From assembly GCF_000259075.1 (NCBI RefSeq), contig NZ_AJKI01000063.1:62001-126000 (forward strand): DNA of 64,000 bases. Direction: 5' to 3'. This DNA comes from Marinilabilia salmonicolor JCM 21150 (GTDB taxonomy: Bacteria; Bacteroidota; Bacteroidia; Bacteroidales; Marinilabiliaceae). The notes under the pieces were generated by a model, which did not search any database, was not told the origin of the DNA, and saw only the letters and a program-made list of their open reading frames with translations. A program made the translations under genes and the position numbers. This document shows positions 23,033-63,541 of the stretch, one piece after another. Within the stretch, counting starts at the first letter, position 1. Each line of letters begins with the position of its first letter.

Positions 23033-23237
23033 GTTTTTAAAGGCCGAAGATCTTAAAGCAATAGCCTGGGGTACGGCCCCAGGAGAATTGTAAAAAATAC
23101 TCCTCCCTCTCATTATTGGTCGCAACGCGACCAATAATGAGAGGGACGTGGGGATACTTAAAAACTCAGGGCTTTGCCCTGGGCTATTGCTCTCAGGCTT
23201 TCAGCCTGTTTACAGCCTACCATGTATTAGGTAGGTT
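23033..23237 (-). repeat. Multi-hairpin intergenic element, copy A (complete)
   Basis: The best complete copy of a family found four times in the window, here in minus orientation. Read on the minus strand it contains: a leader ending TGTAAACAGG; hairpin 1 CAGGCTGAAAGCCTG; hairpin 2 CCCAGGGC-AAA-GCCCTGAG; the central hairpin at 23105-23145 with perfect 19-bp arms (CCTCTCATTATTGGTCGC is 18 of them) and loop GTT; hairpin 4 CCTGGGG-CCGTA-CCCCAGG; and a final AAGATCTTCGGCCTTT segment. The short tags AGCAATAGCC and GGCTATTGCT form an outer inverted pair. It begins five bases after the porX stop codon and lies between porX and tsaE. Confidence 0.9.
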
Positions 23238-23241
23238 AAAT

Positions 23242-24798
23242 TCATCTCAAAGGGCTCAATTCAATCAAGGGAACCATCATTTCTTCCAGAGAAACACCCC
23301 CGTGCTGAAATGTATCTTTGTAGTAATTAACGTAATAATTATAATTATTTGGATATGCAAAAAAGTCGTCCCCTTTGGCAAAAATATATGAAGTAGAAAC
23401 ATTTGGCCGGGGAAGAAAGAAATCTCCCGGGCTCTTTGCTTCTAAAACATCTTTCGCTTTGTAAGCCAGATTTTTCCCGTGTTTAAACCGAAGATTGGTA
23501 TTGGTATTGCGATCGCCCACCACTTTTACAGGATGCTGAACCCTAATAGAGCCATGATCGGAAGTTACAATCACTTTAACTTTTTCTGCTGATAATTTTT
23601 TCAACAAATCAAACAGCGGTGAATGCACAAACCAGGAACGGGTAAGTGAACGGTAAGCAGATTCATCGGATGCCAGCTCACGGATCATCTTTATTTCGGT
23701 TCGGGCATGAGAAAGCATATCTACGAAGTTATATACCAGCACAGAAAGGTCGTGGTTTAGCAACTGACCATAATTGTCGGTGAGTTTCCGACCTGTTTCG
23801 TTGTCACTGACTTTATGATAGGCAAAAGAGAAATCACGGCGCATACGCTTAAAGAAAGTCCCGATTAATTCTTCCTCAAAATTGTTTCGACCGCCCTCTT
23901 CATCATCATCTACCCAGTATTCGGGATAAAACTCCTTTATCTGAGTGGGCAGCAATCCGGAGAAAAGTGCGTTACGTGCAAATTGAGTGGCAGTAGGCAA
24001 AATACTGCAATAAGTATTATCGGAAACCACATCGAACAAAGACCGTATGTCATGCCGGATTGTCTCCCACTGATCGAGTCGAAAATTATCTATTACCACC
24101 CATATTACTTTCTCGCCCTTATCCAGCTTTGGCAGGACTGTATGTTTAAACACCCGGTGCGACATTAACGGACCATCCTCATCCACCAACCAACGTTCAT
24201 ATTCATCATTTACAGTACGTGCGAACAGTTGATTGGCCTCACTCTTTTGCATCTTCAGCACCTCATCCATGGCGCTGTCGGCACTCTGCAATTCAAGTTC
24301 CCAATACACCAACTTTTTATACACCTCCTTCCATTCATCCATGGTCAGCTGATCGCTCATGCGAAACCCAAGATTAGTGAATGCCGCCTGATAGGCACTT
24401 GTTGCCTTTTCGGAAACCAATCGTTCCCGGTCCACATGACGCTTTACCGAAGACAAAATCTGATTGGGCTTCACCGGCTTTATAAGGTAATCCGATATTT
24501 TGCTGCCGATGGCCTGATCCATGATATCCTCTTCCTCACTTTTTGTAATCATAATGACCGGAGTTCCGGGCCTCAGCTCTTTCATTCTGGAAAGTGTTTC
24601 CAATCCACTCAGTCCTGGCATATTTTCATCCAGAAAAACAATATCAAACTGCTGTTTTGCAATAGTCTCCAGCGCATCATTCCCATTCGAAGCGGTCTCT
24701 ACCACGAAACCCTTCTCCTGTAAAAACAATATGTGAGCCTTCAAGTGTTCAATTTCATCATCCACCCAAAGAATTCTGATCTTTTTTGTTTCTTCCAT
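23242..24798 (-). CDS. porX: Type IX secretion response regulator PorX (receiver + PglZ domain)
   Basis: PorX is the response regulator controlling type IX secretion genes and is partnered by the PorY kinase and SigP in Porphyromonas (established knowledge). The 518-residue protein has a receiver domain (about 5-125) with DD at 13-14, phosphoacceptor Asp57 in FLDENMPG and the Lys of YLIKPVKP. A helical linker leads to a PglZ/alkaline-phosphatase-like domain (about 210-515). That domain shows VIDNFRLDQW, the Thr-rich LPTATQFARNALFSG and metal-site VTSDHGSIRV. All expected catalytic positions look intact. porW follows upstream on the same strand with a 65-bp gap, so co-transcription is plausible. 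The cargo adhesin at 58959 would be a client of the same system. Confidence 0.93.
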   Translation of the reverse strand: MEETKKIRILWVDDEIEHLKAHILFLQEKGFVVETASNGNDALETIAKQQFDIVFLDENMPGLSGLETLSRMKELRPGTPVIMITKSEEEDIMDQAIGSKISDYLIKPVKPNQILSSVKRHVDRERLVSEKATSAYQAAFTNLGFRMSDQLTMDEWKEVYKKLVYWELELQSADSAMDEVLKMQKSEANQLFARTVNDEYERWLVDEDGPLMSHRVFKHTVLPKLDKGEKVIWVVIDNFRLDQWETIRHDIRSLFDVVSDNTYCSILPTATQFARNALFSGLLPTQIKEFYPEYWVDDDEEGGRNNFEEELIGTFFKRMRRDFSFAYHKVSDNETGRKLTDNYGQLLNHDLSVLVYNFVDMLSHARTEIKMIRELASDESAYRSLTRSWFVHSPLFDLLKKLSAEKVKVIVTSDHGSIRVQHPVKVVGDRNTNTNLRFKHGKNLAYKAKDVLEAKSPGDFFLPRPNVSTSYIFAKGDDFFAYPNNYNYYVNYYKDTFQHGGVSLEEMMVPLIELSPLR

Positions 24799-24863
24799 AT
24801 CTCTTCAATTCTCCATTAAAACGCCAATCGAAGCGCTTTTCATTCCAAATCTTACGGCGGTTG

Positions 24864-27641
24864 CTAATGACTTTTATAGGGCTCCTCCGGAATTTCATTC
24901 TCCGTAACAACAATGGCTGACGGATCACTTCCCGGCAAGTAATTATCCAGAAAAAACTGCCGGTACAGTTCTATGTCCGAGGCGTTGTTCAATTCACTGT
25001 AATTGTCTTCAGAAACAAGCAATAACAAAGGTCGTCCCGGATTATCAACTGCAAAAACAGAAGGATTGTTCAGCAATGCAAAAAAGTAGTCCAGTCCCAC
25101 CCGGCTGTTCTCAAAGGGCCCTGTTTGCAGGGTGTTATATACTCCCCCAAGCGTACTGCTTTCCAACCGCAACCCGCCAATGGTGTATCTGTCAAAGTTA
25201 AAATTAGCCAAATAAAACAATATCTGATTGACATCCGCTTCCGGTTGGAGCACAATCATCAAATAATGCGTGGAATCAGGACTAAAGGAAAACTTCTGAC
25301 TCTCCGCCTCAGTAGAATCTCCTTCAGCCCCATGGGATTCCGGGCTTTCTGAACCAGAAGTTTCGGCCAGCAACTGTTCCGGCTCTTTCCCCTGTTTCAA
25401 CATTTCCAGCCAGTGCCGTGCCACTTCTGCCTGTGAGGATTGCGGATATTGGTCTGTCAGGGTAAGCAGGCCGTCTCTGAAAGCATTTGTATTTCCCATT
25501 CGGCTGTAAGCAGCAGCGTTCAGCAACAGAGCATTGGGTTTTATGGCATCATAACCGGATTCAACAATCATGCTCGATTGCTCTAAAACTCTGCTCCAAT
25601 ACCCCTTCTTATAATCATCGAATGCTGAAACATATAAAGAGTCCAACTCAAGATGTCTTTTTTCGAGTTTTGCAAAATAATCCGGATCTTCGACAAAAGC
25701 AGCAAAGCGACTATCCGGGTAATCATCCATAATCACTTGACCGTAATGGGCCATACACTGACGATCGGGGATTTCAGCACACGACAGATAAATTCCGGTG
25801 AGCGCCTGCTCCCGCAAATCTGTTTGGGGATAAGCACTAATGAGCTCCTCAAATTGCTCAATAGCCTCTTCATGTTTATCAAAATTCTGAGCCAGCAGAT
25901 GTCCGGCATTAAACCGTGCCTTCTGAACTTTCAAATGCGACTCTTTCAAGGCTTCAGGTGTAAGGGGCAACCCGGCAACTAAAGACTCCCGGTCAGGTTT
26001 CCCGCCACCTTTTTCGTCTGCCTCCTGCCCGCCCGGGCCAGGAGGTTGCTGACTAAAAGGATCATCGGGCATCATTCCATCCATTTCGCCCGGGTTTTGC
26101 CGGTCGGCAAGTGATGTCTTATTTTTCCTGCGCCAGTTATCCTCATCATCCCTGCGTCCCCAGCGTTTCTCAAATTCCATTTGTCCCAGACTGACCATTG
26201 TTTGATTGTAAAAATACCATTTCCCGGATTCATCAGTACTTCGACTTCCCCGGTTGGCAAAATTCCTGTAAAAGAAGGCATCATCCATTGGGGCACCCCC
26301 TGCCTGAGCCTGCTGCTCTTGTTCCTGCATAGCAGCCAGGAGGTTGTCAATAAAAAGGGCCCGTTCCTCTTCAGGAAGAGTAGCGATGCGTTGCACACTA
26401 TCTTCATATTGAAAAGTACGCAAATTTTCAGCAAGCGGAGCCAGACTCCGACGAAACTGATGAATTTCCTCAATACCGGGATAATCCTGGGGCAATACGG
26501 TAAGCGTAGAATCATAATAAGCATCTGCTGCCACGTATTCTGATGATTGAAAATAAATATCGGCCATTCGATGATAAATATTCCCGGCAAGAATTCGGTC
26601 TTTGCCACCATACCCTGCAGCCAGCTGAAGGTTTAACAGCGCATTCAGCGTATCCCCTTCTTCCAGGTAGGTTTGAGCGAGTGCATAATAAATCTGATCT
26701 CTGTAATCCAGGTTCTTAAATTCACGCGCATATTTCTTCAGAACTTCTCTCGCCTCTTCAGTATCTCCCATACTACCGGCAATCATAGCGTTTTTCACCC
26801 GGGCATGAATAACCATTTCATAATCGGGATTCATAGAAACAACCTTCTCGTATGCATCAATTGCCATAGCAGAATTATCGATTTTCTCAGCCAGCTGCCC
26901 CATTATGAAATACCATCTTACTCTCTGCCATCTGTCGGTGGCATTCTCTGCTGCCAGGGGACAATATTCCATGGCTTTTTCCGGCTGATCCTGAGCAATC
27001 CAAAACCAGGCATGGGTTGCAGCAGCAGTGGAAAGAAACTTTTTTTCATCTTCCACACCGGAGGAATATCGATCAAGATATAATTTTGCATTCTTAAAAT
27101 CCCCCATCTCAATGTAGGCTCTGGCCATCCACAACATAGCTTCGAACCTCACTGATTTTTCGGGAAATAATTGCAGAACCATGTTAAATGCGCCAATCCC
27201 TTCGTACCAGTCTCGCGAATAAACATGAGCCTTCCCGATCAGCATATAAGCTTCATCTACCCAACGATTAAACTCCCGCTGATTGTAAAAAGACCGGTAT
27301 TCCTCACCTGCACCACGCACTGAACGGTTGGGTTTTGCAGTAATAGAGTGCTTTTCAATAAGTTTGTATCCTTTCCGGATGGCTCTGTTCATGTCGGATG
27401 ATGGCACCTGACTTCCTGAAATATCAGAATAAGCAAATGCCGGCAGAATCCGGGTATAATCATTTTTTACCGATTCACGCATTTTCTCCTGACCGTTGCT
27501 AAAACTCTGTTGCCCGTTAAATAACACATTGTATCTTGCAGTGAGATTGTGATAACCACGCGACAACCAGGTATTTTTTTGAGTTGAACATCCCAGAGAG
27601 ACCAAAAAAATAAATATGAATATGAAATTCGTTTTTTTCAT
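24864..27641 (-). CDS. porW: Type IX secretion TPR lipoprotein PorW/SprE
   Basis: An outer-membrane-associated lipoprotein with tetratricopeptide repeats, required for type IX secretion and gliding in studied Bacteroidota. The start is ATG 27641 (925 residues), with signal FIFIFIFLVSLGC and lipobox Cys. Mature NTWLSRGYHNLTARYNVLFNGQQSF is characteristic. TPR-like helical pairs run from about residue 95 to 420 and again about 580-740. Between them lies a low-complexity Pro/Gly/Asp-rich segment (about 505-560). Two C-terminal regions (FSPDSTHYLMIVLQP...) resemble a conserved PorW tail. Possible -7 boxes TATTTTTG (27684-27691) and TATCTTTG (27794-27801) lie on the minus strand upstream. Confidence 0.9.
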   Translation of the reverse strand: MKKTNFIFIFIFLVSLGCSTQKNTWLSRGYHNLTARYNVLFNGQQSFSNGQEKMRESVKNDYTRILPAFAYSDISGSQVPSSDMNRAIRKGYKLIEKHSITAKPNRSVRGAGEEYRSFYNQREFNRWVDEAYMLIGKAHVYSRDWYEGIGAFNMVLQLFPEKSVRFEAMLWMARAYIEMGDFKNAKLYLDRYSSGVEDEKKFLSTAAATHAWFWIAQDQPEKAMEYCPLAAENATDRWQRVRWYFIMGQLAEKIDNSAMAIDAYEKVVSMNPDYEMVIHARVKNAMIAGSMGDTEEAREVLKKYAREFKNLDYRDQIYYALAQTYLEEGDTLNALLNLQLAAGYGGKDRILAGNIYHRMADIYFQSSEYVAADAYYDSTLTVLPQDYPGIEEIHQFRRSLAPLAENLRTFQYEDSVQRIATLPEEERALFIDNLLAAMQEQEQQAQAGGAPMDDAFFYRNFANRGSRSTDESGKWYFYNQTMVSLGQMEFEKRWGRRDDEDNWRRKNKTSLADRQNPGEMDGMMPDDPFSQQPPGPGGQEADEKGGGKPDRESLVAGLPLTPEALKESHLKVQKARFNAGHLLAQNFDKHEEAIEQFEELISAYPQTDLREQALTGIYLSCAEIPDRQCMAHYGQVIMDDYPDSRFAAFVEDPDYFAKLEKRHLELDSLYVSAFDDYKKGYWSRVLEQSSMIVESGYDAIKPNALLLNAAAYSRMGNTNAFRDGLLTLTDQYPQSSQAEVARHWLEMLKQGKEPEQLLAETSGSESPESHGAEGDSTEAESQKFSFSPDSTHYLMIVLQPEADVNQILFYLANFNFDRYTIGGLRLESSTLGGVYNTLQTGPFENSRVGLDYFFALLNNPSVFAVDNPGRPLLLLVSEDNYSELNNASDIELYRQFFLDNYLPGSDPSAIVVTENEIPEEPYKSH

Positions 27642-27910
27642 GTACAAAACCGAACTGATAATACATTATAAACTAAACTGCGGCAAAAATATTTCACAAA
27701 TTGAGGAAGAAAAAATACTTTTAACCCGATAAACAGAAGCACCTCAATGTCGGAAAAAATTTTATTAATTGCATTTCCACAGACAAATCACAACAAAGAT
27801 AATCATCTGAGTGGAAGTTTTTTTGAAGCATCATGGCTAATTTCCATTAAAACCGGGTACAAGATGCCTTTTTATCAATACGAAATAAAACAATTACAAA
27901 TTCCCGGCTT

Positions 27911-29266: not shown

Positions 29267-29285
29267 TCCATCAGTACAATTCTCC

Positions 29286-29525
29286 TTACTTTACAGCCAC
29301 AACCTCAAGAATCTCAGGCACTTTCTGCTTCACCACCATCTCCACTCCCCCTTTGAGGGTTTGCAAACTCATCGGACACCCATCGCAGGCGCCCGTCAAT
29401 TGCACTTTAACCTGCAAATCGTCGGTCAGTTCCACAAAAACAATATCACCACCATCTGACTGCAAGTAGGGCCTGATGCTATCCAAAGCCTCCAGAACAC
29501 GTTGTTTTAGTTGCTCCTTTTCCAT
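29286..29525 (-). CDS. NifU-like C-terminal domain Fe-S scaffold protein
   Basis: A 79-residue Nfu-type protein that carries or assembles iron-sulfur clusters through the CxxC motif (GACDGCPMSLQTL). It begins LKQRVLEALDSIRPYLQSDGGDI, the standard Nfu opening. It consists only of the NifU C-terminal domain. It lies 12 bp after the gene for the Mrp/ApbC P-loop protein, another Fe-S carrier, so the two probably act in one assembly route. Confidence 0.93.
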   Translation of the reverse strand: MEKEQLKQRVLEALDSIRPYLQSDGGDIVFVELTDDLQVKVQLTGACDGCPMSLQTLKGGVEMVVKQKVPEILEVVAVK

Positions 29526-29537
29526 ATCAAAAATCCT

Positions 29538-30647: not shown

Positions 30648-30681
30648 ATCTAATTTTATTTAAACTTTTTAAATATAAGGG

Positions 30682-30714
30682 CAAAGGTAAAAAAAATTCC
30701 GGAAAGCGAACAAA
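30682..30714 (-). promoter_or_regulatory. Promoter of mrp-nfu operon
   Basis: On the minus strand: TTTG (complement of 30711-30714), a 21-nt spacer, TACCTTTG (complement of 30682-30689). The mrp ATG is 34 nt downstream of the -7 box. Confidence 0.6.
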
Positions 30715-30790
30715 TGTTTACTTACCGGAACTTCCCATTATACATTAAGAAACCATTAATGTCCTGAAAATTATCTCATTTATTTTCTGA

Positions 30791-31123: not shown

Positions 31124-31124
31124 A

Positions 31125-31886: not shown

Positions 31887-31923
31887 AACAGGTCAACACA
31901 TTAAAAAAACAACAAAAAAATGA

Positions 31924-34929: not shown

Positions 34930-35116
34930 ACAAAAACATCGGCACGTTGGATTCTAAATTATCCTCACTTTTCAGACCCAATCCCCCGGTCTATTGCTCC
35001 AATACCTTCGACCTTTTAACTTCCTTTAGACTGATCCGCTCCATACAAAGATTTGTAATGCAGAGGCCGGGAAAATCAATAATTCGGATTAAATTAGTGG
35101 TCCATATTTCCTAACC

Positions 35117-35316
35117 TTCCTTATATATAAAACAGGTGAGGTGTAAACAGGCTGAAAGCCTGAGAGCAATAGCCCTGGGTTTAGAGTTATACCCACCCCC
35201 TTTCTCTTTATTGGTCGAGTTGTGACCAAATAAAGAGAGAGAGGAATGATTTGTTACAATTTTCCCTGGGCACTGCCCCAGGCTATTGTTTAAAGACCTT
35301 CGGCCTTTTAAAAACA
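35117..35316 (+). repeat. Multi-hairpin intergenic element, copy B (full length, decayed)
   Basis: A full-length plus-orientation copy. In order: leader TTATATATAAAACAGGTG, TGTAAACAGG, hairpin 1 (CAGGCTGAAAGCCTG), AGCAATAGCC, a shortened hairpin 2 (only CCCTGGG remains), the central hairpin near 35203-35238 with an extra A and a mismatch in the arms, hairpin 4 (CCCTGGGCACTGCCCCAGG), GGCTATTG, and the closing AAAGACCTTCGGCCTTTT. It lies between the divergent holB and glycosyltransferase genes. Confidence 0.88.
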
Positions 35317-35350
35317 AAGCTTTATCAATATACCATCCACAGACTGTAAG

Positions 35351-36514
35351 ATGCCGCCACCACAAAAAACCATACTCTTTTGCCCGCTTGACTGGGGACT
35401 CGGACACATCGCCCGTGATTTGCCCCTCATCAGGGAGTTTATCCGAAACGGGCACCGGGTGGTTGTTGCCGCATCAATAAGCCTCTGCAAATGGGTTGAA
35501 AGTGAAGAACCCGGTATTGAAACAGTATTTTTCGATGGTCCGGAAATTCATTATTCAGGTAAACAGGGAGCTTTTTCAGAAATACTATTTCAATTACCGA
35601 AGTTAATGCGCTGGCCCGGCAAAGAAAAAAAACGCATCAGAGAGCTGACGGATATGGTTCATCCTGACCTGATCATTTCAGACAACCGCTATGGCGCCAG
35701 ACATCCCGGTATAAATTCGGCAATCATCACCCATCAGATATGCATTCAACTTCCCCGGAATCTTAAATGGGCCGAATACCTCCTGCACCGTATGGTGAAA
35801 TATTTAATTGGCAAATTTGACCAGTGCTGGATACCCGATTTCCCAAAAGAGGACTCTCTCGCAGGGAACCTTGTCCACCAATATTCGCTTCCGTCAAACG
35901 CTGTTTTAATCGGTCCTTTGTCCCGTTTCGACAGTATTTCGCAGGAAGCCGCTCTAAACATCCCGCAACAAACCGTGCTGGGAATCATTTCGGGACCTGA
36001 ACCCCAACGAAGTATTTTTGAAGAATTGCTCCAAAAAGCACTGGCAAAGCGGGAAGGTAAACACACGCTTATTAACGGACAAACCAACGGACACAAAGCA
36101 AACAAGGAAATGACCAATCCTGTTTTAATGAATCATCTGCCAACTCAGGAAATGATCCGGCTGATTCAGAATCATAAGGTTATAATTTCCCGTTCGGGTT
36201 ATTCCACCATCATGGATATGTATTTTCTTAACCGAAGCATCATAATGGTCCCAACCCCGGGACAGACAGAGCAGAAATATCTTGCGCGACTTCATCATGG
36301 TCGCAGGCATCAAGAGCTAAATCAAAACCAGATTAACGGCACAGAATTTTCAATTACAATTGACTCTCCAATAGTGCCCGGTGCCAGTTCAAAAAAGCCG
36401 TTAACCTTTCGGACTGTATTGAAATCAATTCTGCAAAACCCTTGTCAAATCACCACTATTCGACAAGAGAGACAGCCCTTCAAAACCGCCTCAAAACGTT
36501 TGTCCAAAAAATAA
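35351..36514 (+). CDS. MurG-like glycosyltransferase family protein
   Basis: A 387-residue predicted glycosyltransferase of GT-B fold, related to MurG/GT28. The N-terminus has the glycine-loop ILFCPLDWGLGHIARDLPLI and GHRVVVAAS. The C-terminal donor-binding half has VIISRSGYSTIMDMYFL and VPTPGQTEQKYLA, where MurG has the UDP-GlcNAc contacts. The acceptor and donor are unknown. The final 70 residues are basic and divergent. It starts 34 bp after element copy B and is followed 127 bp later by an unknown gene on the same strand. Confidence 0.8.
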   Translation: MPPPQKTILFCPLDWGLGHIARDLPLIREFIRNGHRVVVAASISLCKWVESEEPGIETVFFDGPEIHYSGKQGAFSEILFQLPKLMRWPGKEKKRIRELTDMVHPDLIISDNRYGARHPGINSAIITHQICIQLPRNLKWAEYLLHRMVKYLIGKFDQCWIPDFPKEDSLAGNLVHQYSLPSNAVLIGPLSRFDSISQEAALNIPQQTVLGIISGPEPQRSIFEELLQKALAKREGKHTLINGQTNGHKANKEMTNPVLMNHLPTQEMIRLIQNHKVIISRSGYSTIMDMYFLNRSIIMVPTPGQTEQKYLARLHHGRRHQELNQNQINGTEFSITIDSPIVPGASSKKPLTFRTVLKSILQNPCQITTIRQERQPFKTASKRLSKK

Positions 36515-45207: not shown

Positions 45208-45742
45208 AAATTTCTTTTAATTCTTCAATTCTAAAAATAAAGGTTCCCGAAATATACCGGGACTCCTGACTTCCTTAACTTACTCCAAAAGCTAACAATT
45301 CAGCATCACCCACCCAACAATCATCGGATTCAATTTCTTTAAACCTGAACTATTCATAAATTATCTCTTACGATGTTCAACTACCTTCTAAATACAGGCG
45401 TCCTCAAGAAAATTGACTTGAAAATAAATTATTATTCCCTTCATCAATTTTCTTTGCGGTTACCCTTATTTATTGGCATTTGAACATCTCATAACGAAAA
45501 TTCATGAATAAACCAGGTTAATAAGATTTCCGGCTTAACCGGGTCTGTTCAAAAAACAAGCAGCAGAGATACCTCCCGAACAAACCAAGTTAAAGGATAG
45601 GATTTTTAAAGTGGTTTTTCTTCCCTGAAAACCAATTCGTCCAATTTTTCGGCCCTTTATTTAGCTCAAAGATAACAATATCGGCAACAAAAATAAATAC
45701 TTCGATTGAAATGTTCGATTATTTTCATCTAAATACCCCCTT
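45208..45742. other. 535-bp gene-free region upstream of rnr
   Basis: No gene or RNA is recognised. Two weak hairpins (TCCCG/CGGGA near 45245; GGTTAA/TTAACC near 45515-45540) and a minus-strand box TATCTTTG at 45667-45674 without a well-placed -33 box are present. A stretch reading AATAAACCAGGTTAATAAG loosely recalls the leader of the multi-hairpin element but is too short to call. Confidence 0.5.
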
Positions 45743-54236: not shown

Positions 54237-54242
54237 AATATT

Positions 54243-54491: not shown

Positions 54492-54496
54492 GAGTA

Positions 54497-56746
54497 TTAC
54501 TCGATCATATTGACATCGAGCGCGCGCGCCAGTGTATGATCAAAGTTTTCAGGTAGAAACAAAAGAAATTCACTCCCTTTGCCGGGTCTGGACTTCAACT
54601 CGATATGGCCGCCCAGCATATGTGCCAGATGCTTACAAAGGGCCAGTCCCAGCCCGTTGCCTCCAAACATACGGGTGTGTCCCTCATCTGCCTGCCTGAA
54701 ACGACGGAAAATAACCTTGTGCATTTTAGCAGGGATACCAATCCCTGTGTCTTTTACCGAAAACAATACCCACCTGTTATCAGTATAAGAGACACTGATT
54801 GTGATGCCACCCTGCTCTGTGAATTTCACAGCATTGGACAACAAATTCAACAGAATCTGACGAAGTCGTGACTCGTCGGTTATCAACTTAAACTTATCCG
54901 GCAGGGCATTTTGAACGGAAACCTGAAGCTGAGACTTATTCATCTTTGTTTGATAACCTTCTGTTTCCCGAAGCAAATCATCCAGTAGTTTGGGAATCTT
55001 AACTTTCACCGGATGAACCTCTACCAAACCCGAATCGATAAATGAGAATTCGATGATGTCATCCATAACGTGCAGCAGGTGTTCACTGCTCTCGTTAATC
55101 ATATCAATGTACATAAGCGACTCATTGCGTGTAATGTGGTCATCCTTCAGCAGTCCTGAGAAGCCCATCACGGCATTAAGCGGAGTCCGGATTTCGTGGC
55201 TGATATTGGCCAGGAATGCTGATTTGAGACGATCGCTTTCCTCTGCTCTCTTCCGGGCTCTCACCACCTTGGTGACATCACGGAAGATCGTCATCTTGGC
55301 CTTATAGGCTCCATCAAAAACCACCGGAACTGTAGTTATCTGATAATCGCGTTTATTAATTCTCTGCTCGAGTCTCTTTCGAAAACGCGACATATTTTCT
55401 TTAGCGGCCATACACCAGGGACACGGCTCTTTTAATCCAAACATCTCCTTGTGGCATTTGGCATTTTTCTTTACACTTCCGAACCGCTTTTTAAATGTAC
55501 GATTCACATAAACAATTTCGAACTTGTCGTTGCTGATCATCACCGGATCCTGGAGATTCTCCATCATGGTCTGATACTTTATCTCACTCTTTTCCAGCGC
55601 CTCTCTGGCCCTTCTGACTTCTGTAACATCTTCCACAAAAGTCACTTTTTTAAACTCCCCGGAAGCATCATTTATGCGGGTAGCATCAGCAACAATAAAA
55701 TGTTCTTGTCCCTTCTTATCAACAACTGTCCAGTTGCCTTTGATTTCTTTTCCATGTAACAGAAAATCATCATGAAGGCCGTACATAAATTCCCTGTTAT
55801 TTTCGGGAACAACCATTGTAAAATGCTTCCCGATCAACTCATTGGGTTTATACCCGTAGATTTGACAATACTCCTCGTTTACAAATTCAAAAAAACCATT
55901 CTTATCCGTAATACAAATACCAATAATACAACTTTCAATGATAGATCTGAACCGGGCCTCACTCTTTTTAAGATCCTCTAACGCTCTTTCCTGAAAAGTA
56001 ATATTCCGGGCCACTGCAAGAATGGCTTTTCGCCCTCTCAGGTTAAATACACGAGCATTCACCTCAGTAGGAATTTCCTTTCCCGTGCGGGTCCGATGCA
56101 TCGTCTTAAAAACAACAAACCCTTTCTCATCAAATCCCTGTACAACCGCCCCATAATCGGTAGCTCCCGGGACATCTATTTCGGACGGAGTCATTCCAGC
56201 CAGTTCTTTCCGCGTATATTCAAGTCTTCTGCAGGCTACATCATTGGCTTCAATAATTGTTTCGGGCACACCATTTTTCTCATCCCAATAAAAAAGAAGA
56301 ACCGCATCACGAATATTTTCGAAAAGTGTGCGGTAAAGGCTTTCACTTTCAGACAAAACGTCTTTGTTCCGGTTTTCTGCAAGTACTTTCTTTATTACCT
56401 CAGTCAGATAAGGTAAAAAGGTCGGCTGGTCAGACCAATACAGCACTTGTTCCGCTCCGGCCCTTGTCAATACAGCGGCTTGCTGAAAATCGTCCTCTTC
56501 ACAAATCACCACCACCGGAACTTTTAGTGCATTTTCATTCATCCAGCGCAGGAAATCATCCGCCCCGGAACCATCGCGCCTGCTTAACAACAACACAACA
56601 TCATATGCTTCTCCTGCCAGTGTTTTTCTGGCACTGGCAGCGTCAGTATGCACCATCACCCCCCCATAAATATCAGCAAGACATCTCTGCAACACGTTCC
56701 CCTGCCGGGAATCTCCGAAATATAATATTTTTGATGATTCAGACAT
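54497..56746 (-). CDS. PAS-domain sensor histidine kinase with pseudo-receiver
   Basis: A 749-residue soluble kinase. Residues about 5-120 look like a receiver fold, but the phosphoacceptor Asp is missing (DVVLLLSRRDGSG has Ser at that position), so it is a pseudo-receiver. Three PAS domains follow (about 135-260, 265-395 and 395-515). The third carries C-x10-C-x-W-C (Cys431, Cys442, Cys445). HisKA has the phospho-His in LANISHEIRTPLN, and the ATPase domain has NLLSNAVKFTE, VKDTGIGIP and GGNGLGLALCKHL. A paralogous kinase lies directly upstream, separated by element copy C. No regulator gene is adjacent. Confidence 0.93.
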   Translation of the reverse strand: MSESSKILYFGDSRQGNVLQRCLADIYGGVMVHTDAASARKTLAGEAYDVVLLLSRRDGSGADDFLRWMNENALKVPVVVICEEDDFQQAAVLTRAGAEQVLYWSDQPTFLPYLTEVIKKVLAENRNKDVLSESESLYRTLFENIRDAVLLFYWDEKNGVPETIIEANDVACRRLEYTRKELAGMTPSEIDVPGATDYGAVVQGFDEKGFVVFKTMHRTRTGKEIPTEVNARVFNLRGRKAILAVARNITFQERALEDLKKSEARFRSIIESCIIGICITDKNGFFEFVNEEYCQIYGYKPNELIGKHFTMVVPENNREFMYGLHDDFLLHGKEIKGNWTVVDKKGQEHFIVADATRINDASGEFKKVTFVEDVTEVRRAREALEKSEIKYQTMMENLQDPVMISNDKFEIVYVNRTFKKRFGSVKKNAKCHKEMFGLKEPCPWCMAAKENMSRFRKRLEQRINKRDYQITTVPVVFDGAYKAKMTIFRDVTKVVRARKRAEESDRLKSAFLANISHEIRTPLNAVMGFSGLLKDDHITRNESLMYIDMINESSEHLLHVMDDIIEFSFIDSGLVEVHPVKVKIPKLLDDLLRETEGYQTKMNKSQLQVSVQNALPDKFKLITDESRLRQILLNLLSNAVKFTEQGGITISVSYTDNRWVLFSVKDTGIGIPAKMHKVIFRRFRQADEGHTRMFGGNGLGLALCKHLAHMLGGHIELKSRPGKGSEFLLFLPENFDHTLARALDVNMIE

Positions 56747-56775
56747 TCAGCAAAAATTTAGTAAGTCTAACCTGC

Positions 56776-56975
56776 CATAAGCATAAACCAGGTAATATGT
56801 AAACAGGCTGAAAGCCTGAGAGCAATAGCCCAGAGCAACGTCCTGGGTTTAGAAGTATCCCCCTCTCCTTATCTATCAGATATTTATGCATTCCGTTAAA
56901 AGGAAAAAGCCTCGCTTTTGGGAGAACTACCTTATACATAAGCCAGGTGTAAACAGGCTTTCAGCCTGAAAACAA
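56776..56975 (+). repeat. Multi-hairpin intergenic element, copy C (two partial copies)
   Basis: Two partial copies in plus orientation. The first (from about 56776) has leader GCATAAACCAGG, TGTAAACAGG, hairpin 1 CAGGCTGAAAGCCTG, AGCAATAGCCC and part of hairpin 2, then decays near 56866. The second starts near 56929 with CCTTATACATAAGCC, TGTAAACAGG and hairpin 1 with the opposite loop (CAGGCTTTCAGCCTG). The central hairpin is lost. They lie between two paralogous kinase genes. Confidence 0.85.
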
Positions 56976-57135
56976 TATAACCTATTCCAATATGCAGGTT
57001 AAAATAAACCGTACTTTACGTTCAAAAAAAATAATGGTTCCAAAAAATGAATATCAAGATACAGGAAAAAAAAGATCAACAACAACAACAACACAGATGC
57101 AAAAAGCAGGATCAATCAGACCTGTTCTGCTTAAT

Positions 57136-58836
57136 TCATGGATAAGGCAGTACATGTAACGGCAATACCACCGAGAAAATACTTCCATTGCCAATGGAGG
57201 AACGCACTTTTAAACGTCCACCCATCCCCTCCACCAGGTTTTTACTAATGAACAATCCCAATCCGTTGCCCCCTGCCACACGGGTCGAAGATTCATCAAC
57301 CTGCCGGAATCGCTCAAAAATGATGGGTATTTTATTTTTCGGAATCCCGATACCCGTATCTTCGACATTAAAAACAACCTCTTTGTCGTTGTGAAATGCT
57401 TCCAGCTTAACAACACCTTTTTTGGTAAATTTTATTCCGTTATTCATCAGATTCATCAGAACCTGCTTTAGCCGCAACGGATCTGTTTTCACCGAAAATC
57501 CTGCCGGGAGATGATTGTCCAAAAGCAGCTTAAGCTCGGGTTTGCCACCGTCAACCAATTCCAGCCTCATCACATCCATCACTTCCGACAACAAAACATT
57601 TAAATCTGTCGGTATAGTGGAAATACGCAGATCTCCCTGCTCAATTCTGGCAACATCCACAATGTCATCAATAATATTCAACAACTGCAGCCCGCTCTGA
57701 TGAATCAGATCCACAAACCGGTTTTTATCCTCTTTAGATAAAGTATCGTCGTTCAGGATGTCTGAAAAACCAAGAATGGCATTGAGCGGGGTGCGAACTT
57801 CGTGACTCATATTTGCCAGGAAAGCTGTTTTCAGCCGATCACTCTCTTCTGCTCTTTTTTTATCCTGAAGAATTTCTGTCAGATCTCGAAGTACCACCAT
57901 CTTCCTCATTACCCCGGGCTCAAATTCCACCGGCACCATAATAATCTGAAAAATACGCCCATCCGACTCCCTGAAATATTCGGATTCGAATTTTTCACTC
58001 ATGCGAAGATCTGTAACTTCCTTACACCACTGACACTTCTGATAAGCGCCCATTATTTTGCGATAACAAAAAGCCTCTTCATCGATGGTTCCGAAACTTT
58101 CTCTAAAGGCCTTATTGGCAAAAACAATGCGACAATCATTATCAGTAATATAAAGAGGTACATCCAGCTGCTCCATCATATTCCGGTATCTTTGTTCACT
58201 TCTGCGAAGCTCCTCTTCTGCCTTTATATGTTCGGTCACATCGCTAACAAATGTCACCAACCGTTTTTTCCCGTTTACCCAGGTTATGGGAACCGTATCC
58301 ACCACCACCGTTTTGGCGACTCCGTTTTTATCACGTACAGCCCATGTTCCCTGGCGCCCTTCATTCCTGTCAAACAGCTGGGCATGTACTTCCAGTACCG
58401 TTTCCCGAAGATTCTCATCAACCAGCATGTCAATTTTATTCTTTAGAAACTCATTAACCTCATAGCCATAGATTGCACAAAACGCAGTATTCACATACTC
58501 AAAAACACCATATTTGTCTGTTATACAAATACCGGACACGGACTTTTCAATAACCTTTTTAAATCGCTGCTCACTCTGCTCCAAAGATTCAGAAAGTTTT
58601 CGGTTACGGTTTAGATAATTCTTTATCATCAGCAACAACAGAATAGCAACCGTAATAACAAAAAACTCTCCTTTCCACGATTGGATGTTTGTATATTCTT
58701 CCGGATTGTCAAACAACAGAAACACCAGCCTGTCACTGAACAAAATCCAGGCACTCCCAAGCAGGAAGAATGTCACTGAAACCCGGATGGCCATCATCCA
58801 TTCAGGATCTAGGTGTTGTTTGAGACGGGTGAACAT
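57136..58836 (-). CDS. Membrane PAS sensor histidine kinase
   Basis: A 566-residue kinase, paralogous to the adjacent one. Two transmembrane helices (about 16-38 and 52-72; VTFFLLGSAWILFSDRLVF, FFVITVAILLLLMI) flank a short loop. Two PAS domains follow, the second with the same C-x10-C-x-W-C pattern (Cys257, Cys268, Cys271). HisKA has LANMSHEVRTPLN; the ATPase domain has VEDTGIGIP and GGNGLGLFISKNL. No receiver domain is present. The shared cysteine motif suggests a redox or metal/cofactor sensor (inference). Confidence 0.93.
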   Translation of the reverse strand: MFTRLKQHLDPEWMMAIRVSVTFFLLGSAWILFSDRLVFLLFDNPEEYTNIQSWKGEFFVITVAILLLLMIKNYLNRNRKLSESLEQSEQRFKKVIEKSVSGICITDKYGVFEYVNTAFCAIYGYEVNEFLKNKIDMLVDENLRETVLEVHAQLFDRNEGRQGTWAVRDKNGVAKTVVVDTVPITWVNGKKRLVTFVSDVTEHIKAEEELRRSEQRYRNMMEQLDVPLYITDNDCRIVFANKAFRESFGTIDEEAFCYRKIMGAYQKCQWCKEVTDLRMSEKFESEYFRESDGRIFQIIMVPVEFEPGVMRKMVVLRDLTEILQDKKRAEESDRLKTAFLANMSHEVRTPLNAILGFSDILNDDTLSKEDKNRFVDLIHQSGLQLLNIIDDIVDVARIEQGDLRISTIPTDLNVLLSEVMDVMRLELVDGGKPELKLLLDNHLPAGFSVKTDPLRLKQVLMNLMNNGIKFTKKGVVKLEAFHNDKEVVFNVEDTGIGIPKNKIPIIFERFRQVDESSTRVAGGNGLGLFISKNLVEGMGGRLKVRSSIGNGSIFSVVLPLHVLPYP

Positions 58837-58902
58837 ATAGTGTTTTTTAGATTTTTTACATTTAATCTAACGTATGTACGGAAAAAATCGTTCAATGGAT
58901 TC

Positions 58903-58937
58903 AAAAAAAAGGGATGCCCCGTCACAGAACATCCCTT
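58903..58937 (-). terminator. Intrinsic terminator of the adhesin gene
   Basis: On the minus strand AAGGGATG pairs with CATCCCTT (8-bp stem) over a 13-nt loop, and a run of eight T residues follows. It lies 21 bp past the adhesin stop codon. Confidence 0.88.
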
Positions 58938-58958
58938 AACCATTTGTAAAAAACCTGT

Positions 58959-61900
58959 CTATAAAACGACAATCTTTTCTAAAAGTGTCCTTTCTTTCAT
59001 CTCTATTTTAAGGAAATAGATTCCGCTCTTTAAAGAAGTCACATCAATCCGCACAGCACTGGCATCCGCTTCAACATAATGCACTTTCAAAGATCGACCA
59101 CTCAAATCAATCACCTCCAGATTTAAAATATCCGACACATTGATTCCACCAATAAAAACATAAGTGTCGGCCGGAACAGGGAATACAGAAGAACTCTCTT
59201 CCTGTTCAGCCAGCACAGTGTTGGCAACTGTAACCGTCAACACTCCGGATACTTCATCATAAGCAAAGTAATAATTATTGTCCAACCCTCCCGAAACCTC
59301 AATATCATATTCTCCGGGCACTGAGGACTCATCAGCAATACAGGAAGCTATAGGCACCTCATCGATAACAGTGACATCATCGGCATTGACAAATCCAGAA
59401 TACTCCAGTTCAAACACAGGATTGGTTTCTCCAACCACCCGTGTAGCATCTTTTGCCTTCACGGTCAGTGGTGCCTGATTAACAGAAAGCACTCCGCTCA
59501 CATAACTGAAGTCGTAGTTTTCATCAGATCCCTCGCCCAGGGTGATAGCATAATCGCCCACATTGCTGCTACCATCTGCTTCAGTCGAAACCACAGGAAG
59601 AGTCATCAAAACTGAAGCATCTTCTCCATTTACAAATCCGGAATAATTAAAAGTAAGTTCAGGATTAACCTCTCCGTAGAGACGGGTTTGGTCATCAGCA
59701 GTCACTATAAGCGAAGCTTTGGAAATGGAGGCCGTCAAAACAGGTTGCTCAAGAGCATAATTAGTGACATCAGTACCGGTAAGTGTCATGTTGGTTGTTA
59801 CAGTAATTCCATCTCCTGAACCAACCTGAGCAAATATCCCGGATGTATGATTACTCAGCACCACATCATCATCACCTTCCACCGCATTGTCCTCCAAAAC
59901 AGCGTTACTCACCGCAGCCACTGTTGTGCCATCGTAAATTTTATCCTGAGCGACAGCATTTACCACCGACACAGGTTTAGGTAAAACATTGAGGGAGGTG
60001 CTACCGTTAATAAGAGGCAGGTAAGATTCCGCGTCAATGGGAAAAAATGCCACCTCTTCTTCCACTGTACCCACTTCGTTCATATCGGAGACAAACATAA
60101 AATAAAAAGTTCCTGCAACGGGGCTGCCTTCATGTGTGGCCTCCCCTCCCGAAAGGACAGATTCTCCAACAGCTTGTCCGTAAACAATGTCTGATGCCTC
60201 AGGCCAGGAAGTTACGGTAACTTTACCGATAGCTCCGGGATGCGGATTCTCCTCATTATCGAGAAGATAGGGGTATGAAACATACTCTTCCAGGGCATCA
60301 ATGCCCCAGGTATTTGTAAAATCCCAATCGATAAAAGAAGTAGCCTCGCGCATCTCTATACCGTTTAGACCAATGCCGCCGACTGAATTCTCCTGCCCGC
60401 TGGCATTGATGTCCCAATAGGAAGAGATAACCTCTCCATCGTTCACTCCTGCGAAACCACCAATGGTAGCATCAGAACCATTAACGGCAGTAGCGGAATA
60501 ACAGTTCGTGATGTTACCTGTAATTAATCCACCCTCTGTATTTTCCTCCGCAATTTCAAGGTTTTCACCAACCAGTCCACCCGCGTTAAGCGGTGCATTT
60601 ATTCCTCCCAATGCATAGCAGTTTTCTATATCACCGGTATTTTGTCCAACCAGTCCACCAGCTGCTCCATCGGTTGCAGTAACCATCCCGGAGGCATAGC
60701 TATTATTTATCCTACCTGCATAATTTTCAAAAACCATCATCATATCTGCCTCAACCTCCTCATTGTTTCCAACCAAACCTCCTGATTTTAAAGGTGCGTT
60801 TACCGTTGCAAATGAGGAACACCTCGTAATGTCTCCCGTATTCTGTCCAACCAGACCTCCACACTCTCCTGTTGTTGCAGTTACCACTGAATTCGCTCCC
60901 ACAGAGCACTGCTGAATCATCCCTCTAAACCCTTGCACGGGTTGATCATTACTAATGCCTGCAATACCTCCAACATACTCTCCTCCTGTAACAGCCCCCT
61001 CAACATGGCATCGCAGTATGGTTCCGCTATTAGCGCCAATCAACCCTCCAACAGCACTTCCGGTAGATACCACCTCAACCGTAGCAGAACAGTCACTAAT
61101 AACTGATCCATTTATGAATGAACCTGCCAAACCACCAACATTTCCCGGCTCAGCATTAACTTTCCCGGAAACATGAACATTACTAATTATGGAACCTTCG
61201 GAAACAGAACCTGCTAAAATAGCCGTTGCGGATTTTCCAACAATTTCTGCTAACGGATCAACAGAAACATTCAGATTAATAATTTCAGCAGAATTAACGT
61301 AACCAAACAATCCGTTGATATATTCATTAGGCCTGTTTATTTTCAGGTTTAAAACAGAAAAACTATTTCCATTTAAGTGACCTTCAAAATTCTCATAATA
61401 ACCTAAACGCTCCCAAAATAACCCATTATTATACCCCGGATTCCCTTCCGACAGATACTCCTGCAAATCAATATCATTGACCAACACATAGTATTTATCC
61501 GCATGCGAACTACCGAGATAATTCCTGATTTCATCCAGGTCTTTAGGTGTTTTAATACGGAAAGGGTCAGCCTCTGTGCCTGCACCGCCGGAAAATGGAA
61601 TTTCATCAACATTTACCACCACATTTTCTTCAGTGTAAAGTTGCGCATCGTTCTGATCGGTGGCACGCACCAGCAATGAAAAACTTTCATAATCATAGCG
61701 ATTCACCCCTTCCTGCAGAAGAGTCAACTCACCGGTTGCTGCATCTATTGAAAAAAATCCATCTTCATTGCCACTCTGAATGGAGAAAACAGGAGCATTG
61801 TCCGTGGCATCTTCATCGGTAGCTGTAACCAAACCGATTGAAATTCCGGCAGGTGACTCCTCATCAAATCTCAACATCTGACCAGCGTCAACCACAGGTG

Positions 61901-63170
61901 TTTCGTTTACATCAGTCACGTCAATTGTCATCATCCCTGTAACAGGTTCACTAATGCCATCGGAGACCTCAACTTCTATCTGGCACTGACTAACTTCCTC
62001 ATAATCGAAGGCAGAAGCCGTTTCCAGATTGATTCCATTACTAACAAAGAGATCATTATCCGTTGCAGCATTTGCCGTCAGACTAAATGTCAGGGGATCG
62101 GAATCAGCATCAGTGGCAGAAAGAGCACCAACCACAGTGCCGGCCGATAAATTTTCATCAAAAGTATTGTTATCAAGGGCAAGACCGGCAGGCTGAGCAT
62201 TCAAAACATATTGCCGGATGTTGTCGATGTAAATATCCTGGTTGCTATAATCATCAAAAGTTAGTCTTACATCGGAACCACCAACAATAGGAATAGCCAC
62301 CTCACACCATTCTTCGGAATAAGATGTTGATCCGGCATAATAAACACTAACTTCAAACCGGATTACACCCCCGACCAAAGCTCTGATTCTATATGACTCT
62401 GAATGATTAATTTTCACATTAAACGTCAGCATATCAACGTCCGGATCGGCAACCTGAAACTCAACATATTCGCCCGGACTTCCATCCACATACAATGAAT
62501 ATGACGAATTAGCACCATCAGTTGCTATGTTACTTGTACTACCAGAAACAATCACATCAGAAGGTATGGTTTGATCTTCAAAATCAACACTACTTATTTC
62601 ACACATTCCTTTCGGACTATGATCTGGAATAACCAATTCTCCTAATTTTAAATCCGCCGAAGGATCCTGAGTATCCCAGTAATATAACTTTAGCGTTGTA
62701 TTTTCCAACGCTGCCTGTTCTGTCGGATCTGTGACAGTCCCCGAATTAGAATCTACAATACTTCCGCTGTAATCATCCGAACAAGTTACTACCGAAAAAT
62801 TATAATCCGCATCAACCGTAATGGTTGTGTATAGCCACTTATTCAAATGATTACCGCGCAGATTACTAATATCATTTGTCGAAACAGTCGTCTGAGCCAG
62901 TTTTATCCCCCCTCGTATATAACTACCATTATTCGTTACATACCATTTGAATTTAACAGTTCCATTAACAGCATTAAAGGCATCTTTAAGAAAAATCAGA
63001 TTCCCATTTCTATACCCGACGGATGGAATTCTCAAACCATCCACTTCTTCAGTAACAGGTCCTGAATAAACGATACTAAAATTATCCGCGGTCATGGGAA
63101 CACTTCGTGTTTGGGCCAAAACGTATCCCGTAATAATTACAAACAAAACAAAGAGTAAAAATTTCTTCAT
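58959..63170 (-). CDS. Large secreted adhesin-like protein, type IX cargo (cadherin, GLUG, MBG domains)
   Basis: A 1403-residue exported protein. It starts with a signal peptide (MKKFLLFVLFVIITGYVLAQ). Residues about 20-330 hold beta-rich regions of unclear family (DDYSNQDIYIDNI). Two cadherin-like domains follow (about 340-540; LSATDADSDPLTF, TGELTLLQEG). A run of GLUG motifs lies near 610-960 (VGGLIGANSGTI, GGLVGQNTGDI). YDG/MBG domains cover about 1010-1300 (DKIYDGTTVAAV, YGEVNPELTFNYSGF, VGETNPVFELEYSGF). The last ~75 residues are a Por secretion C-terminal sorting domain (LEVIDLSGRSLKV, LKSGIYFLKIEMKERT). It is probably transported by type IX secretion and anchored at the surface. Upstream is an unusual palindrome-rich region with no obvious promoter. 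Confidence 0.92.
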   Translation of the reverse strand: MKKFLLFVLFVIITGYVLAQTRSVPMTADNFSIVYSGPVTEEVDGLRIPSVGYRNGNLIFLKDAFNAVNGTVKFKWYVTNNGSYIRGGIKLAQTTVSTNDISNLRGNHLNKWLYTTITVDADYNFSVVTCSDDYSGSIVDSNSGTVTDPTEQAALENTTLKLYYWDTQDPSADLKLGELVIPDHSPKGMCEISSVDFEDQTIPSDVIVSGSTSNIATDGANSSYSLYVDGSPGEYVEFQVADPDVDMLTFNVKINHSESYRIRALVGGVIRFEVSVYYAGSTSYSEEWCEVAIPIVGGSDVRLTFDDYSNQDIYIDNIRQYVLNAQPAGLALDNNTFDENLSAGTVVGALSATDADSDPLTFSLTANAATDNDLFVSNGINLETASAFDYEEVSQCQIEVEVSDGISEPVTGMMTIDVTDVNETPVVDAGQMLRFDEESPAGISIGLVTATDEDATDNAPVFSIQSGNEDGFFSIDAATGELTLLQEGVNRYDYESFSLLVRATDQNDAQLYTEENVVVNVDEIPFSGGAGTEADPFRIKTPKDLDEIRNYLGSSHADKYYVLVNDIDLQEYLSEGNPGYNNGLFWERLGYYENFEGHLNGNSFSVLNLKINRPNEYINGLFGYVNSAEIINLNVSVDPLAEIVGKSATAILAGSVSEGSIISNVHVSGKVNAEPGNVGGLAGSFINGSVISDCSATVEVVSTGSAVGGLIGANSGTILRCHVEGAVTGGEYVGGIAGISNDQPVQGFRGMIQQCSVGANSVVTATTGECGGLVGQNTGDITRCSSFATVNAPLKSGGLVGNNEEVEADMMMVFENYAGRINNSYASGMVTATDGAAGGLVGQNTGDIENCYALGGINAPLNAGGLVGENLEIAEENTEGGLITGNITNCYSATAVNGSDATIGGFAGVNDGEVISSYWDINASGQENSVGGIGLNGIEMREATSFIDWDFTNTWGIDALEEYVSYPYLLDNEENPHPGAIGKVTVTSWPEASDIVYGQAVGESVLSGGEATHEGSPVAGTFYFMFVSDMNEVGTVEEEVAFFPIDAESYLPLINGSTSLNVLPKPVSVVNAVAQDKIYDGTTVAAVSNAVLEDNAVEGDDDVVLSNHTSGIFAQVGSGDGITVTTNMTLTGTDVTNYALEQPVLTASISKASLIVTADDQTRLYGEVNPELTFNYSGFVNGEDASVLMTLPVVSTEADGSSNVGDYAITLGEGSDENYDFSYVSGVLSVNQAPLTVKAKDATRVVGETNPVFELEYSGFVNADDVTVIDEVPIASCIADESSVPGEYDIEVSGGLDNNYYFAYDEVSGVLTVTVANTVLAEQEESSSVFPVPADTYVFIGGINVSDILNLEVIDLSGRSLKVHYVEADASAVRIDVTSLKSGIYFLKIEMKERTLLEKIVVL

Positions 63171-63405
63171 AGCATAAGCGTTTTTTGGTTCTGTAAATTG
63201 TCTTGAAGTTTATACGCCAACGCTCCCTGAAGAGTTGAAAGTATATGGGATTCGAAAAGTGCTAATTAGAATTCGTGCAGGTTCTCAGGATATTCGTTTG
63301 GCAGCTCTTTCTCTCGGTTTATCTAAAAAGAAGTGCTAATCATCAAAAGCAGACAACCATTTCCCTCAAAAAACAATAAAAAGGAATGTATAGCCCTTTA
63401 CATAC
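63171..63405. other. Gene-free region upstream of the adhesin
   Basis: No intact gene. A 53-codon open stretch on the plus strand (63178-63339, ending SLGLSKKKC) looks protein-like but lacks a start and may be chance. A 14-bp sequence GTTTATCTAAAAAG at 63317-63330 recurs at 63607-63620. Confidence 0.4.
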
Positions 63406-63541
63406 CTTAGACATAAAGCCGACAAGGTGCAACCAGGCTGAAAGCCTGAGAGCAACAGCCCTGGGCAACGCCCAGGGTTTAGAGTTATCCCCCACGCCCT
63501 CTCTCTTTATTGGTCGCGTTGCGACCAATAAAGAGCAATTA
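63406..63541 (+). repeat. Multi-hairpin intergenic element, copy D (left two-thirds)
   Basis: A plus-orientation copy with leader CCTTAGACATAAAGCC, hairpin 1 at 63434-63448 (CAGGCTGAAAGCCTG), hairpin 2 at 63459-63477 (CCCTGGGC-AAC-GCCCAGGG, perfect 8-bp arms) and the central hairpin at 63503-63535 (CTCTTTATTGGTCGC, 15-bp perfect arms, loop GTT). The right part, hairpins 4 and 5, is missing. It lies upstream of the adhesin gene. Confidence 0.9.

Follow-up and report, generated by a model that had tools for sequence, protein, structure and literature searches.

Four related elements in the window

The DNA analysed here, called the window throughout, is a stretch of 64,000 nucleotides of the Marinilabilia contig NZ_AJKI01000063.1 (positions 62,001 to 126,000 of the forward strand; contig C63 of genome G000 in our survey). 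It contains four copies, EL1 to EL4, of a dispersed hairpin-rich element, which is the subject of this report. Their features are listed below in window coordinates; positions prefixed C63 are those of the contig, and bit scores are those of model R1 of the two-hairpin unit (see below).

EL1, 23009..23235, minus strand: 227-bp family A element with both two-hairpin units and the central hairpin
EL1 left two-hairpin unit, 23162..23211, minus strand: hairpin 1, AGCAATAGC tag, hairpin 2; R1 70.1 bits at C63:85162-85211
EL1 right two-hairpin unit, 23037..23086, plus strand: inverted relative to the left unit; R1 57.3 bits at C63:85037-85086
EL1 central palindromic hairpin, 23115..23135, no strand: ATTGGTCGC NNN GCGACCAAT, 0 mismatches, at C63:85115-85135
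EL1 target-site duplication, no strand: TTAA at 23005..23008 (left) and 23236-23239 (right)
EL2, 35115..35316, plus strand: both units and the central hairpin; CTAA (35111-35114) precedes the left end
EL3, 56771..56998, plus strand: rearranged inside, with left unit, right end and a second, inverted left hairpin; flanks CTAA and TTAA
EL4, 63401..63547, plus strand: left unit, central hairpin and right terminal repeat; TTTA at 63397-63400 and 63548-63551

A 22-base core of the left arm matched exactly these four loci in the window and nothing in 100 shuffles, and the repeats and inverted repeats linking them were also recovered de novo. The four loci are thus one real repeat family, as an earlier reading of the bare sequence (the original prediction) had claimed. 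The borders given in that prediction were too narrow. Its single common layout describes EL1 and EL2, which have both units and the central hairpin, but not EL4, which has only the left unit with the central hairpin, or the rearranged EL3, which lacks the central TTATTGGTCGC hairpin. The right terminal repeat of EL2 could not be recognised, therefore its right border is approximate. According to the list of open reading frames (ORFs), EL1 and EL3 are located between ORFs of the same direction, EL2 between divergent ORFs and EL4 upstream of an ORF. All four loci lie between the long ORFs. EL2 is overlapped by a shorter ORF at 35111-35455 (114 aa) and EL3 by one at 56257-56802 (181 aa), and both of these look spurious. 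The occurrence in both orientations is evident from the list. Searches of contig C63 with PF01797, PF01609 and PF13701 found nothing; other transposase families were not searched. Rfam models at gathering level detected only a tRNA in the window.

Copy number and consensus of the element

When up to 3 mismatches were allowed, the left-arm core was found at 65 places in the source genome (4.98 Mb, 72 contigs), and its reversed control at none. All 65 places were aligned with their flanks to build a consensus, termed family A, which is 273 bp long ahead of the right terminal repeat. In the consensus TTAACCTACCTTATACATAAGACAGGTAAGG is followed by TGTAAACAGGCTGAAAGCCTGAGAGCAATAGCC and then by two GC hairpins, between which stands the central hairpin around ATTGGTCGC. 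After the second GC hairpin come GGCTATTGC, a hairpin containing CTTCGGCC and the right part, which terminates in GGGAGGACTG. Individual copies measured 147-290 bp, or more if they were fused to a second family (see below), and full, deleted and fused forms were all present. In nine copies (L015, L025, L029, L051, L053, L054, L055, L057 and L070) the segment between the two similar GC hairpins was deleted.

A covariance model of the two-hairpin unit gave at least 143 matches in the genome at E <= 0.001 (150 candidates scored). Eighteen of the further unit loci outside the 65 places were retrieved: 16 of these matched at least 103 of the 273 consensus positions, and two were lone units. The genome thus contains about 80 copies, fragments included.

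The consensus was matched in 17 of 100 genomes, the source genome included. Most of its length was covered in G000 and G002-G004 and positions 38-209 in G001; elsewhere the matches were mainly unit-sized pieces. G016, a genome of another genus of the same family, carried a short form (consensus positions 2-69 and 171-265, 94 and 98% identical); one such copy, close to the Marinilabilia consensus, is at G016:C54:5527-5686 (L077). This close match may reflect recent transfer or contamination. The pattern of the central hairpin was found in 51 copies in the source genome and 48 in the congeneric comparison genome G004 (controls 2 and 2), but the three remaining Marinilabilia genomes had only 2, 3 and 6 copies, against 0, 1 and 1 for their controls, which points either to a burst in one branch or to losses in the others. 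G004 is an M. salmonicolor genome, whose tnpA is identical to that of M. salmonicolor MSL42.

Ends, target duplications and empty sites

The element is bounded by imperfect terminal inverted repeats of about 16 bp, CCTACCTTATACATAA on the left and CCTGNNTTATTCATAA (reverse complement) on the right, and by 4-bp target duplications, mostly YTAR and near variants. The left border is sharp: the information content of the alignment is near background beginning five bases outside CCTACC. Directly outside the left end, 31 of the 59 alignable copies had TTAA (19) or CTAA (12). A scan for inward-facing CCT..TTAT.CAT ends returned 60 pairs, many by chance. Identical flanking tetranucleotides (TTAA, TTAG, CTAA or CTAG) were present in 8 of the 60 pairs, against 1.7 expected, and only 1 of 10,000 permutations reached 8. 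L022, a copy of 290 bp, has TTAA on both sides.

Transposition by DDE enzymes is marked by such duplications, which IS200/IS605-type Y1 enzymes are not known to produce. Spread of the whole element by a Y1 enzyme of the REP-associated tyrosine transposase (RAYT) type, where REP stands for repetitive extragenic palindromic, was the first of two origins offered by the original prediction, and it was rejected because of the target duplications and because conservation on the left extends to the CCT terminal repeat, i.e. 33 bp beyond the left unit. IS200-like insertion 3' of TTAA without duplication was also considered, and it was dropped as TTAG, CTAG and CTAA occurred on both sides as well. YTAR duplications have been documented for IS5 (PMC10359306) and a YTAR target has been reported for IS711 (PMC2266754), in the portions of these papers available to us, so the tetranucleotide alone is insufficient to name the family of the mover.

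To look for unoccupied sites, the 65 copies were compared with about 0.9 Mb of G004. Thirteen copies had syntenic flanks on both sides in G004; for the rest, save L042, the G004 stretches used contained no syntenic counterpart. Three reference elements were compared with the 13 gaps, and 12 gaps, among them those of all four window copies, gave no match at E <= 0.01. Not every gap was clean: the amount of unrelated sequence in them ranged from 0 to 726 bases. Short remnants of ends, for which L040 is a possible case, would have escaped this comparison. EL1 was the cleanest case: 243 bases in the window, 227 of which are the element, correspond to none in G004, and the TTAA present on both sides of EL1 is a single TTAA in G004. 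Similarly, the TTTA on both sides of EL4 is a single TTTA in G004. The syntenic site of EL2 showed no element match, and that of EL3 had other sequence instead of the element. The thirteenth site, that of L015, was occupied in G004 by an element in the opposite orientation (L263:10314-10764), i.e. family A is reversed at the same intergenic site between the two species; this could result either from inversion between the arms or from two insertions at one site. The copy number and the 12 unoccupied sites speak for mobility, for which fewer than about ten copies, or copies only at co-linear sites in all relatives, had been named as counter-evidence.

The terminal repeats, the target duplications that vary together on both sides, the empty sites and an insertion sequence (IS) sharing the ends (see below) lead to the second origin offered by the original prediction, a miniature inverted-repeat transposable element (MITE). 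We consider it probable (about 0.8) that the four loci represent a non-autonomous DDE-type element which has IS1380-type ends and, in its interior, TnpA-linked hairpin units. The hybrid interior is unusual, and the MITE family is new; no published name for it was found in a search of the open-access literature.

A second family with the same kind of ends

The following feature of the window was missed by the original prediction:

Family B, 45344..45517, no strand: palindromic MITE of 174 bp, with terminal repeats (CCTG ends) like those of family A

Numerous copies have precisely this length, both in the source genome and in M. salmonicolor. Exact 4-bp duplications flanked 13 of 21 family B copies; ten of these were YTAR, the others ATAG and TTAC. 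One M. salmonicolor copy had TTAG on each side; the window has a single TTTAG in its place. The pattern of the B-type ends gave 117 + 106 matches in the source genome (control 7 + 7) and 57 + 84 in G004 (control 4 + 14).

Family B stands alone but is also frequently joined to family A at the right end of the latter. This arrangement could be explained by assuming that the units are an older REP-like family which acquired the CCT ends when a family B MITE inserted beside it at a later time. We regard this as very improbable, because in 59 of the 65 copies the alignment reaches the left CCT end, in front of the unit, and because copies exist which have the right end but no family B, such as L022.

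Among the matches listed there were also 26-bp sites in which two terminal repeats stand back to back (G000 C1:10495-10520, C2:204635-204660, C11:252191-252216, C21:2233-2258, C25:28130-28155 and C56:55012-55037). These may be minimal elements or excision products. Three long pairs of terminal repeats (940, 856 and 795 bp) in the source genome and M. salmonicolor contained, by eye, no transposase frame, and enclosed only host genes or neighbouring family B copies.

A decayed IS1380-family element shares the ends

Fifteen DDE_Tnp_1 loci from five Marinilabilia genomes were inspected for a possible partner. One of them, L350 of M. salmonicolor, carries the ends CCTGAATAATTTATAA and TTATGGATAAAGCAGG, 1,704 bp apart and with CTAA on both sides. 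PF13701 matched across its whole broken frame (E 7.1e-138), and NF033539 matched the middle piece (E 3.5e-49). In a comparison with plasmids the element had no match. The ends of IS1380 elements generally start with CCT. Family A resembles IS1380-family insertion sequences and MITEs in its ends, in the short target duplication and in having a partner with a PF13701 / NF033539 DDE transposase. It differs from them in its interior, which is unrelated and made of hairpin units. The sequence evidence makes an IS1380-family DDE transposase the likely mover. Such an enzyme would have recognised the ends by binding and integrated the element into YTAR targets, and the source element would since have decayed or been lost, leaving copies that are now mostly static.

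Several observations weigh against this interpretation. L350 is itself decayed, with two in-frame stops, and the source genome has no PF13701 match over the cut-off (one is below it), thus the mover is deduced from a decayed relative. L350 is the only one of the 15 loci with the MITE ends; they are absent from C18, the other M. salmonicolor locus that exceeds the PF13701 cut-off (71 bits). The interior of L350 gave no significant BLAST match to families A and B, the ends alone being in common. As to the copies, L042 is spanned by an unbroken syntenic alignment, i.e. it is shared rather than polymorphic; several true copies have unequal flanks (EL3 is an example), no right end was recognised in EL2, and 8 of the 21 family B copies have no exact duplication. 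Finally, the uptake of the hairpin units by the MITE, suggested by the anatomy of the element and by L271 (see below), could be mimicked if a tnpA gene had jumped into an existing element.

The two-hairpin unit flanks subclass 1.2 tnpA genes

In the interior of the element, two inward-facing two-hairpin units surround the long central hairpin. Inverted unit doublets are also a feature of REPs, bacterial interspersed mosaic elements (BIMEs) and REPINs, and in full family A copies the left and right units do face inward. The similarity to REPINs and BIMEs with their RAYTs extends to the intergenic location and to the tens of copies (PMC3116915, in the part available). On the other hand, the unit of the window has two hairpins and the AGCAATAGC tag; GTAG or GTGG was not found at the hairpin foot. 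In the unit consensus hairpin 1 is preceded by AAA(C)A, and the two hairpins are separated by AGCAATAGC. The element also differs in its CCT ends with target duplication and in having no link to class-2 RAYT genes.

The source genome contains seven PF01797 loci. L035 and L036 encode class-2 REP_Tyr transposases, L031 and L032 encode intact IS200-like proteins with the Y---Q--HH motif, and three are remnants. Two remnants, L034 and L037, adjoin a unit. The intact genes, L031 and L032 as well as the class-2 genes L035 and L036, had no unit at E <= 0.01. With wider flanks, the place of L037 (L271) contains family A, a piece of tnpA and family B in one row.

Model R1, trained solely on dispersed copies from the window genome, was run on 100 loci. 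A unit was present within 300 bp (E <= 0.01) at 47 of 92 tnpA loci with known ORF, which represent distinct genes. The density of matches was 1.46 per kb near tnpA versus 0.030 further off, and 59 of 78 matches pointed inward to tnpA (plus strand upstream, minus strand downstream). Counting only whole-unit matches, with matches to the GC hairpin alone excluded, left 40 of 92 loci (36 of 88 without the close relatives L104-L107), with 65 matches near versus 6 far and 46 inward versus 18. As a control, 30 class-2 RAYT loci (NF047646) of relatives were scanned: none had a unit at E <= 0.01, and the only two rows were at chance level (E 0.56 and 0.83). The class-2 genes, in the source genome and in relatives, were therefore discarded as cognate genes of the unit. 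Units were also commoner in genomes that have a relative of the subclass 1.2 tnpA (29 of 61) than in those without one (3 of 39; Fisher 2e-5, a value that is too optimistic since the genomes are related); strict filters and 60 candidates per genome were used in this count.

The flanked proteins are about 150 aa long. In an alignment of 16 of them Y115, Q119 and H123 were invariant and H122 nearly so, and NF033573 was over the cut-off for the three proteins scanned. The AlphaFold model of the M. salmonicolor TnpA (predicted local distance difference test score 85.5) had its best structural matches among IS608, ISDra2 and other IS200-type TnpA proteins. In structural re-alignment the RAYT structure 4er8 scored Z 9.2, versus 14.2-15.5 for IS200-type chains, a difference compatible with kinship. 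Judged from their sequences, these proteins agree with the published definition of subclass 1.2 (Quentin et al., PMC6006769). In the accessible text of the same paper subclass 1.2 is described as generally lacking the typical terminal secondary structure features of IS200. The units can be regarded as DNA repeats linked with subclass 1.2 TnpA, which presumably binds them.

The original prediction had suggested looking for TnpA genes flanked by the same units. Such genes exist, not in the class-2 RAYT group but in another Y1 clade, the IS200-like subclass 1.2, and the RAYT hint was a good lead nonetheless. By description only, not by repeat sequence, subclass 1.2 tnpA loci resemble the TIRtrons of Di Nocera et al. 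2013 (PMC3733652). In these a Y1 gene (TIRYT) has inverted repeats on its sides, some of them double palindromes, and the same repeats are found dispersed as well. TIRYTs are tied there to RAYT-like genes, unlike the element of the window, which moves by other ends.

These data bear on a further explanation, namely that the loci are REPIN- or REPtron-like elements which a Y1 enzyme, either a RAYT or the subclass 1.2 TnpA, moves in single-stranded form, recognising the unit pair as their ends. The inward-facing inverted pairs, which resemble REP doublets, the units at tnpA loci and their distribution among genomes, as well as the tnpA remnants beside units in the window genome, are all compatible with it. 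We nevertheless consider it unlikely. The target duplications already refute it for the most part. Besides these and the position of the left border, 16 of the 18 unit loci retrieved outside the 65 places match family A and two are lone units, and L031 and L032, which lack the unit, are the only intact genes of the subclass 1.2 clade found in the genome itself. Under the preferred interpretation, a DDE-type MITE, the element most likely took up a pair of units of the kind that flanks subclass 1.2 tnpA in Bacteroidota and neighbouring groups, and the L271 remnant would have retained a tnpA piece between the parts.

The unit was also seen on both sides of the tnpA gene L212 of Bacteroides xylanisolvens XB1A, i.e. 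the unit-tnpA system reaches well-studied gut commensals. The intact subclass 1.2 tnpA of M. salmonicolor (L104 / L133) is located between direct repeats of several hundred bases, each with units. By eye, L031 (subclass 1.2) and L035 (class-2 RAYT) have similar other flanking hairpins, TTTCCGCACGAGGGGC and CGTCTCC-GACGA, despite their different classes.

Relation of the unit to Acido-Lenti-1 and covariation of the hairpins

The unit is the reverse complement of RF01687, the Acido-Lenti-1 RNA of Rfam, with which it has the two-hairpin layout and the linker in common. The window copies differ from that family in score: none reached the gathering score of RF01687 (37 bits), the left unit of EL1 giving a plus-strand match at 23165-23208 with 23 bits. 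RF01687 was detected at gathering level in 14 of 95 distinct tnpA loci (97 sources), with 23 matches, and in none of 20 RAYT loci. Fifteen of the 23 matches were within 300 bp of tnpA (17-180 bp), a region comprising at most 13% of the bases.

In Weinberg et al. 2010 (PMC2864571) Acido-Lenti-1 is entered as a probable RNA, with Acidobacteria and Lentisphaerae as its sources. According to the portion available of a 2026 paper, little is known about it and it may regulate nearby protease genes (PMC13298647). Multiple copies have been annotated in Vibrio anguillarum (PMC10059132). A literature search by name and accession, in which papers were available in part, found none tying Acido-Lenti-1 to a transposase.

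Paired changes were compared with 500 shuffles, which leave the relatedness of the copies in place. In the central hairpin of the EL1 type, computed over 28 copies, two-sided changes keep nine pairs (28 cells), and none of the shuffles reached the observed value for any of five measures. In the unit, 49 cells were changed on both sides, again reached by no shuffle. Two other measures, the number of such pairs and the number of pair types, were reached by 120 and 163 of the 500 shuffles, and for the most part the paired changes distinguish left units from right ones. Covariation in a copied palindrome may indicate selection on DNA or on RNA structure.

These paired changes, together with the listing of a similar unit as an RNA in Rfam, could be taken to mean that the loci are a structured RNA or a transcription-control element (terminator, mRNA stabiliser or small RNA) under selection for its hairpins. 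This seems quite unlikely: the copies occur in both orientations and in varied ORF settings, the element is missing at syntenic sites of the sister species, two of the five covariation measures of the unit were not above shuffles, its changes largely follow the split between left and right units, and the shuffle controls do not remove relatedness.

The preferred interpretation, that of a MITE with IS1380-type ends, can be combined with the tnpA data into a wider proposal, which is tentative and to which we would give somewhat less than even chances. According to this, Acido-Lenti-1 would not be an RNA gene in the first place; it would be the unit that subclass 1.2 TnpA recognises in single-stranded DNA, in a REPtron- or TIRtron-like system of Bacteroidota and neighbouring phyla, and a Marinilabilia IS1380 MITE would have taken up a pair of these units, becoming open to two unrelated transposases, one DDE and one HUH. 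Eight of the 23 gathering matches at 333-690 bp from tnpA, and the 81 of 95 tnpA loci without any match, count against the Acido-Lenti-1 part. So does the statement, in the available portion of PMC13298647, that there is no transposase near the Tannerella copies; copies without a nearby transposase would be expected from units dispersed away from tnpA, and equally from an RNA. The wider reach of the findings lies in the link among subclass 1.2 TnpA, the unit and Acido-Lenti-1, which suggests a specific function, open to experimental testing, for each of two orphans: the TnpA proteins of subclass 1.2 and the Acido-Lenti-1 'RNA'. If this link is correct, small-RNA annotations of Acido-Lenti-1 should be read, at least partly, as transposase-linked DNA repeats.

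Another dispersed repeat in the window

Next to EL4, at about 63592-63923 of the window, there is another dispersed repeat, starting with TGTCCATAAAGTCCAACTTCTGCGTTGTT, which was also encountered at L222, L223 and L228 and in the flanks of L055 and L029. It is apparently a further MITE-like family of the genus.

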